Assembly (NCBI RefSeq): GCF_014251235.1
Contig: NZ_CP059181.1
Coordinates: forward strand, 248,001 to 312,000
DNA length: 64,000 bases
Source of the DNA: Blattabacterium cuenoti
GTDB taxonomy: Bacteria > Bacteroidota > Bacteroidia > Flavobacteriales > Blattabacteriaceae
Direction of reading: 5' to 3'
Positions within the stretch are counted from its first letter, which is position 1, and each line of letters begins with the position of its first letter. Below, in pieces: positions 22,510-27,920 of this stretch. The notes under the pieces were generated by a model. That model was not told where the DNA came from. It worked only from the letters and a program-made list of their open reading frames with translations, and ran no database searches. The position numbers and the translations under genes are program-made.

Positions 22510-22524
22510 ATAGTATAATACTAT
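22510..22524. repeat. 15-bp palindrome at the murB 3' end
   Basis: ATAGTAT, central A, ATACTAT. No T run follows in the murB direction, so it does not look like a terminator; it may be chance in such AT-rich DNA or part of a regulator site for the downstream punA-like gene. Confidence 0.15.
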
Positions 22525-23560
22525 TATTGGATAATATTTACTTCTCGTGATAATAGAATTCCCAATTTATTTTTTATTTTTTTAGTTATTTCTTCTGAAA
22601 AAGAATATATATCTATTCCTCTAGCTTTTCCATAGTTTACTAAAACAATAGGAAGTTTTTCATATATTCCAACATTTCCCTTTTTTTTACCTTTCCATCC
22701 TATTGATTCAATCAAGGAACTGGCAGATAATTTTACTTTATTTGTTTTTTTATTATTATCAATAATAGAATAACCCGTAATATTTGGATATTTAGATCTT
22801 ATATTAATAAAATCAATCATTTCTACGATTGGATTCATAAAGAAACTACCAGCATTTCCTATTTTTTTTGGATTTGGGAGTTTTCTTTTTCTAATATTCA
22901 TAATAGCTATACTTAAATCATAAATGGTTGGTTTCTTTATTTTCATATTTTTTAATTCCTCTTTCATTTCGTAAGAAATATTTAGTTTGTGATTTTTTTT
23001 TTTAACAAAAAGGATACAGATAAAATCAAAAAATTATTTTTTACATGTGTTTGTTTAAAAAAAGAATGACGATATTCTAATTTACATTCTTCCTTTGTAA
23101 AGATTCTTATTTGTCCATTATTTGTATCATAAACTTGAACTTCCAGTAAAGTATCTTTTACTTCTGATCCATATGCTCCAATATTTTGTATAGGTGAAGC
23201 TCCTACAGTTCCAGGAATAAATGATAAATTCTCTAATCCGCTAAATCCTTTTTTTATAGTCCAAATAACAAATTTTTCCCAATTTTCTCCAGAAAATGCT
23301 TTTACTATTACTTGAGAATCATATTCTTTCATCACTATTATTCCTTTAAATCCAATTTTCATTACAATTCCATTGTAATAATTTCTTAAAAAAAGGACAT
23401 TACTCCCATTTCCTAATGGAAGTTTTGGAATGTATGGATATTTATAGTAAATTTTTTGTATTTCTTCTATTTTTTTTACATTAATAAAATAATTTGCTTG
23501 TACATTTACTCCAAATGTGTTAAAATTCTTCAGAGAAAAATTTCTTTTAAAATTTAACAT
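22524..23560 (-). CDS. murB: UDP-N-acetylenolpyruvoylglucosamine reductase MurB, frameshifted at a poly(A) tract
   Basis: FAD enzyme making UDP-MurNAc from enolpyruvyl-UDP-GlcNAc. The first frame (23560 down to 22982, 192 residues) has the FAD-binding half: NTFGV, LGNGSNVLF, LSFIPGTVGASPIQNIGAYG and EYRHSFFK. The second frame holds the rest: IRKRKLPNPKKIGNAGSFFMNP with the catalytic Ser, and SREVNII with the catalytic Glu. They part at an 11-base run (T11 at 22993-23003, A11 on the coding strand). One more A gives a single 345-residue protein reading LLKKKNHKLNISYEMKEEL across the joint. Neither half could work alone, so slippage or a base-count error is the likely explanation. Confidence 0.93.
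22993..23003 (-). other. murB: A11 tract (coding strand) at the murB frameshift
   Basis: T11 on the plus strand, so A11 in the murB message. As written the frame closes at ATCACAAACTAA just after; with A12 the frame runs into the conserved C-terminal half. Same length and same direction of error as in murE. Confidence 0.85.
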
Positions 23561-26435: not shown

Positions 26436-27920
26436 ATGTATACCAATGATATTATTATTTTGTTTATAGTTTTTTATGGAGGATATAAAGGATATAAAAA
26501 AGGATTATTATCACAGTTATTTTTTTTCATGATATTCTTTATTTTTCTATACAAAGAAATAGAAATATTTCATGTTGTTTCAGAAATAATTTTAAAAAAA
26601 TATAGAATAAAAGAACCATTGTTTACAGGTCTATCTATAATTATTTCATTTTTTTTTATAATTATCATATCTTTTTTTTTAAAAAAATTCATAGAATTGA
26701 TTTTAAATATGATGTATTTAAATACACTTGATAAAATATTAGGTAGTCTATTAGGTTTTATTAAATATTTTTTTTATATTTCAATATGTCTTTCTTTGTT
26801 GAAAGAAACAAATAAAATAATAAATTTTGTTCCACATCGTTTTTTTTTAAATTCTTTTGAAAAAGAATTTCAATATTTCTTCTCTATGTATCGAAAAATA
26901 TTCATTTTTTTTTTCAAAAAAGTAGAAGAATTATATTTTCATCAAATGAACTTTAATAAAAAGATTTTTTCTATATCATCCAAAAAAGAATTTTTATCTC
27001 TCTCATTAGAGATATTCAATTATCAAATCAAAAATAACAAAATTTATAAAAATTATTTACAATTATTAAAAATTAAACCATACTGTATTAAAAAAATATC
27101 TGATATACCATTTTTACCTATTTCATTTTTTAAAACTCATCGAGTTTATAGTTTACCAAAGGATATTATACCAGAAGTTGTTTTTGAAAGTACTGGAACA
27201 ACAGGTATCAAAAGTAGACATTATATAGCGGATTCAATCATTTATATTAATAGTATTTGCAAAGGATTTGAATATTTTTATGGTTCTATAGAAAATTTTC
27301 AATTTTTAGCTTTATTACCTTCTTATAGAAAAGATTCTTCTTTAATTTTCATGTTAAAATACTTTATACAAAAAACATGTAAAAATGGAAGTACTTTCAT
27401 TGATAATGAAAATTTACCAATTCTTCATAATGAAAAAAATATTTTTATTTTTGGATCGAGTTTCTCTTTATTAGATTTTTTAAATCAAAAAAAAAATAAA
27501 AATAGTTTCGATTTTAAGAAAAGAAAAGTTATAATTATGGAAACAGGAGGAATGAAGGGAAAAAAAAAGGAAATTATAAGAGAGGAGTTACATTGTATTC
27601 TCAAAAAAGGTTTCTGTGTGAAAAATATCCATTCTGAATATGGAATGACAGAATTGCTTTCTCAAGCGTATTCAAAAAAAAACGGAATATTTAGATGTCC
27701 TCCTTGGATGAAAATATACATAAGAGATCCTGAAGACCCCTTTTTACATATCGATAATCATAAGATAGGAGGAATAGATATTATTGATTTATCCAATTAT
27801 TTATCTTGTTCATTTATTTCTACAAATGATTTAGGAAAAAAGATAAATGAAGAAGAATTTGAAGTATTAGGAAGAATGGATTCTTCAGATATACGTGGAT
27901 GTAGTATGATGACTTTTTAA
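26436..27920 (+). CDS. CvpA-like membrane protein fused in frame to LuxE/PaaK-type acyltransferase domain
   Basis: A 494-residue ORF made of two parts. Residues 1-170 are CvpA-like: about four membrane segments, with YGGYKGYKKGLLSQLF near the start and LDKILGSLLGFIKYFF. Residues 171-494 look like a complete LuxE-type acyl transferase as found as a separate gene in Flavobacteriia: it starts MNFNKKIFSISSKKEF and has PFLPISFFKTHRVY, STGTTG (nucleotide loop) and the late HSEYGMTELLSQAY. The codon at 171 is an ATG (26946), so the second part could be made alone. A T10 run (26905-26914) sits just before the joint; one T less or more would end the CvpA part at 26925 or 26956. I start at ATG 26436 rather than TTG 26412. 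Confidence 0.8.
   Translation: MYTNDIIILFIVFYGGYKGYKKGLLSQLFFFMIFFIFLYKEIEIFHVVSEIILKKYRIKEPLFTGLSIIISFFFIIIISFFLKKFIELILNMMYLNTLDKILGSLLGFIKYFFYISICLSLLKETNKIINFVPHRFFLNSFEKEFQYFFSMYRKIFIFFFKKVEELYFHQMNFNKKIFSISSKKEFLSLSLEIFNYQIKNNKIYKNYLQLLKIKPYCIKKISDIPFLPISFFKTHRVYSLPKDIIPEVVFESTGTTGIKSRHYIADSIIYINSICKGFEYFYGSIENFQFLALLPSYRKDSSLIFMLKYFIQKTCKNGSTFIDNENLPILHNEKNIFIFGSSFSLLDFLNQKKNKNSFDFKKRKVIIMETGGMKGKKKEIIREELHCILKKGFCVKNIHSEYGMTELLSQAYSKKNGIFRCPPWMKIYIRDPEDPFLHIDNHKIGGIDIIDLSNYLSCSFISTNDLGKKINEEEFEVLGRMDSSDIRGCSMMTF

Follow-up and report, generated by a model that had tools for sequence, protein, structure and literature searches.

A single open reading frame of 494 codons lies on the forward strand of the window (the whole 64,000-nucleotide stretch analysed here, from a genome of 613,216 bp of Blattabacterium, an endosymbiont of cockroaches), running from an ATG at 26436 to a TAA at 27918-27920. 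Its first part encodes a CvpA protein (PF02674) and its second a LuxE-type acyl-protein synthetase, and the locus is organized as follows.

26436-26945, forward strand: CvpA (Colicin_V) part, residues 1-170 of the fusion; matches PF02674 and aligns with cvpA of 48 congeners.
26905-26914, forward strand: T10 tract, coding for IFFF in the ancestral cvpA frame; gapless in the alignments with relatives G066 and G030.
26922-26939, forward strand: VEELYF, a conserved CvpA tail motif in the same frame as LEELYF or LKELYF of the relatives compared.
26938-26939, forward strand: point of a net 14-nt deletion, uncertain by a few nucleotides, at which the cvpA tail and stop are removed and the two frames come into register; from pairwise DNA alignments with G066, G030 and G071.
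26946-26948, forward strand: ancestral start of luxE, which has become internal in the fusion (Met171); lines up with the luxE start in the 35 congeners whose luxE is intact.
26947-26956, forward strand: stop codons within the luxE start (TGA at 26947-26949 and TAA at 26954-26956), the places at which cvpA stops in most relatives by sequence comparison.
26946-27920, forward strand: LuxE-type acyl-protein synthetase part, residues 171-494 plus the stop; assigned by NCBIfam LuxE, by 7xc6_E (E=1e-22) and by a PaaK/ANL fold.
27900-27902, forward strand: invariant cysteine, Cys319 in the numbering of LuxE and Cys489 in that of the fusion; its aligned counterpart in Photobacterium LuxE is Cys364.

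The joint region of the fused protein (residues 160-180) includes the peptide VEELYFHQMNFNK. A preliminary description of this DNA had reported the 494-residue CvpA and LuxE-type frame, the T10 tract at 26905-26914 and the internal ATG at 26946, and all of these are present; the second part does keep its own start and full length, as had been claimed.

The CvpA identity is secure by profile, with a PF02674 match over residues 5-125 (E=3.3e-12, 47 bits against a curated cut-off of 29.3), and cvpA is found in all 49 Blattabacterium genomes, the window's included. PF02674 proteins are four-helix inner-membrane proteins, and the hydropathy of the CvpA part shows three distinct segments preceded by a weak one; the AlphaFold model is of low confidence in this half, which was left out of claims about fold. 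The side of the membrane on which the CvpA tail lies is addressed by three observations. A positive-inside charge count is flat and favours neither side; a survey of Buchnera lists CvpA with five helices and marks it as inside; and a weak match of the membrane part to MarP (E=0.054), in which the CvpA-like part carries a periplasmic domain, hints that the tail is outside. MarP has a CvpA-like membrane part of four helices, and the fusion resembles it in the weakly matching membrane part with an enzyme domain behind it, but the enzymes are unrelated, and MarP's serine protease works outside the membrane, in the periplasm, whereas LuxE needs ATP.

For the LuxE half, the NCBIfam LuxE profile gives a weak match (E=3e-16, 59 bits against a cut-off of 550), and PF04443 gives no hit below E=1 with the window's own sequence; free-living orthologues that share about 50% identity with it pass PF04443 with 49.7-54.6 bits (cut-off 24.9). 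A Pfam match to Corona_I in this part is below its cut-off and was dismissed as chance. When PDB sequences are searched, the LuxE sequence alone has no match; the LuxE family profile finds Photobacterium LuxE (7xc6, E=1e-22), and the confident half of the AlphaFold model matches PaaK-type adenylating (ANL) enzymes (Z 23.3, rmsd 3.5 over 300 residues). The identities given to both halves in the preliminary description thus hold, for CvpA by PF02674 and for LuxE by NCBIfam, by PF04443 in the free-living orthologues and by 7xc6. All 57 residues that are invariant in every other LuxE sequence compared are kept, among them ETGGMKG and EYGMTE as well as RGC at the C-terminal end. The counterpart of the invariant Cys319 in 7xc6_E is residue 364, the cysteine within KGCSL, which carries the acyl group in Photobacterium LuxE. 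The fused part most likely corresponds to a LuxE-type acyl-AMP/acyl-transfer enzyme, which it resembles in family (by profile), in its ANL-type fold and in the aligned C-terminal cysteine; it differs from Photobacterium LuxE in the presence of the CvpA part and in that there is no sign of a lux operon around the fusion. Of 149 Bacteroidia genomes sampled, 136 match the query, nearly all of these in its LuxE part, and this near-universal presence of the LuxE orthologue suggests a conserved role.

Both halves appear to be under constraint. Comparisons of the window with relatives give dN/dS of about 0.22-0.27 for luxE and 0.31-0.57 for cvpA, and the corresponding values among unfused genomes are 0.25-0.36 and 0.34-0.66. 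With all invariant LuxE residues kept and dN/dS as in unfused pairs, neither half looks like a pseudogene, and by these sequence measures both look functional.

Comparison of the locus in 48 other Blattabacterium genomes (49 with the window's) reveals no fusion in any of them, in support of the claim that two separate genes have here become one frame. luxE is intact in 35 of the 48, lost in 10 and eroded in three; the loci with lost or eroded luxE are L084-L094, L106 and L107 (13 of the 49 genomes). Among the congeners with intact luxE, cvpA ends in a 4-nt overlap in 12 (a TGA overlapping the luxE ATG), in an 11-nt overlap in 16, and ahead of luxE in seven, which leaves a short gap. In the class-wide sample of 149 genomes a LuxE orthologue is found in most, but in no case does an intact CvpA part precede it. 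The two families had been described as separate neighbouring genes in Flavobacteriia; they are indeed adjacent in Blattabacterium, but in other Bacteroidia that carry CvpA and LuxE on one contig the genes are 19-355 kb apart, and a general adjacency in Flavobacteriia is not supported. None of the other genomes searched has the CvpA-LuxE combination, and the literature searched for gene fusions in Blattabacterium yielded no relevant paper.

DNA alignments with relatives locate the change that separates the window from the unfused arrangement. Against G066 and G030 the alignment is gapless from TTTGAAAAAGA across the T tract to GAATTATA, and over the same interval G071 aligns likewise except for a shorter T tract. 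After GAATTATA, the window lacks the 14 bases that precede the luxE ATG in G066 and G030 (window, RKIFIFFFKKVEELYF; G066, RKEFLFFFKKLEELYF), which puts a net deletion of 14 nt in the stretch from the ELYF motif to the start codon of luxE. The reading frame is identical to that of the relatives on both sides of T10 and, because the alignment across the tract is gapless, its phase is ancestral. In the gene used for comparison, DNA identity to the nearest of the relatives is only about 79%, so the net deletion could comprise several events, the direct ancestor being unseen.

These alignments bear directly on the proposal in the preliminary description that a one-base slip in the T10 tract created the fusion, with RNA-polymerase slippage at the tract now yielding both fused and separate proteins. 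The frame arithmetic behind the proposal is right on recomputation: T9 would give a stop at TAG 26923-26925, before the luxE start, and T11 a stop at TAA 26954-26956, inside it, thereby recreating the 11-nt overlap that 16 relatives have. In Buchnera, insertions by slippage at A/T runs are documented too, in a study that found none restoring a reading frame (PMC5574713). In G071 (locus L096, genome of 634,449 bp) the homologue of the tract is T7, with T8-T9 in close relatives, and CvpA is truncated before its conserved tail. However, this slip, the only one observed among the relatives, cuts CvpA short without fusing it, and the joint comparison that had been put forward as a check goes against the proposal, as the frame change lies downstream of T10. 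Furthermore, T11 would destroy the conserved CvpA tail, turning KVEELYF into QKSRRIIF, and with a profile of the relatives' CvpA, from which the window was left out, T10 scores 192.4 and T11 187.7 bits, a modest 4.7-bit margin that agrees with the alignment. A slip is rejected as the origin of the fusion by the alignment, the lost tail and the profile score, and the proposal as a whole is improbable. We regard as quite improbable too the variant in which the T10 DNA would give the tethered LuxE and polymerase slippage to T11 would give a separate CvpA plus a coupled free LuxE, with the cell using the ratio of the two; none of the observations calls for such dual products. The window (26% GC) contains 20 A/T runs of 10 or more, so one such run near the joint is unsurprising; the locus shows that a striking homopolymer can lie next to a fusion point without being its cause.

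The fusion is known from one genome only and rests on the assembly sequence. An assembly or consensus error would fit with its occurrence in a single genome and with the commonness of long A/T runs, but the 14-base difference sits outside the homopolymer, an error at T10 would necessarily disrupt a conserved motif, and both halves are otherwise intact; such an error is therefore highly improbable.

The reason that a small deletion can have this effect lies in the start of luxE. LuxE begins M-N-F-K/N, encoded by ATGAAYTTYAA, which contains a TGA at +1 and a TAA at +8, one in each of the frames that luxE does not use, and cvpA therefore normally stops inside the luxE start. A cvpA frame that enters luxE either stops there or continues as a fusion, and insertions and deletions in the cvpA tail can thus yield a 4-nt overlap, an 11-nt overlap or a fusion. 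Both types of stop occur in the relatives, and the window represents the third outcome. The explanation that we favour, with a probability of about 0.85, is a single-lineage fusion by the net 14-nt deletion, with in-frame read-through and the 494-residue protein as the most likely main product. In Blattabacterium, cvpA runs into the luxE start; the comparisons with relatives show that loss of the last cvpA codons and stop just upstream of the luxE ATG has put cvpA into luxE's own frame, with the T10 tract upstream of the deletion keeping its phase, and ribosomes would then read through. In the protein so made, the LuxE-type enzyme would be tethered to the membrane by CvpA, and a single membrane-tethered LuxE is the simplest reading of the product as judged from the DNA. 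Some free LuxE may also start at the retained ATG at 26946.

An alternative with the same origin gives that internal start the larger role, such that LuxE would be made mainly from ATG 26946 and the read-through protein would be a tolerated by-product. Both the ATG and the LuxE N-terminus MNFNKKIFS behind it are retained, and LuxE is under full constraint. The periplasm is without ATP, which LuxE needs, and a periplasmic CvpA tail, as hinted by the weak MarP match, would place the fused LuxE there, so that the internal start would be needed. Against this, the stop-and-restart coupling open to the overlapping relatives is lost here, and we consider predominant internal initiation possible but somewhat doubtful.

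The fusion is a genuine but minor, single-lineage case of a kind of event already known. yidC and yidD are fused in Blochmannia pennsylvanicus and B. vafer (PMC3017870), and in both cases neighbouring genes of an insect endosymbiont with a reduced, AT-rich genome share one frame; they differ in the genes involved and in that the Blochmannia fusion is in two species whereas this one is in a single lineage. The locus also resembles the poly-A/T frameshifts of Buchnera and Blochmannia that are rescued by slippage, in having a long A/T run within a coding frame of a reduced genome, but in those cases slippage repairs a frame that is broken in the DNA, whereas here the frame is intact at the DNA level. 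The locus provides a small, clear example of the passage from gene overlap to gene fusion in shrinking genomes: with stops in two of the three frames provided by the start of the downstream gene, an indel that shifts the frame in the tail of the upstream one readily leads to fusion. It could also hint that the widespread LuxE homologue of Bacteroidia tolerates life at the membrane, although one genome is weak evidence for this.

Elsewhere in the window, we note that murB (reverse strand, 22524-23560) is broken into two frames, of 192 and 147 amino acids, next to a run of A11 (on the forward strand, T11 at 22993-23003), and the split gene is a candidate for rescue by transcriptional slippage.
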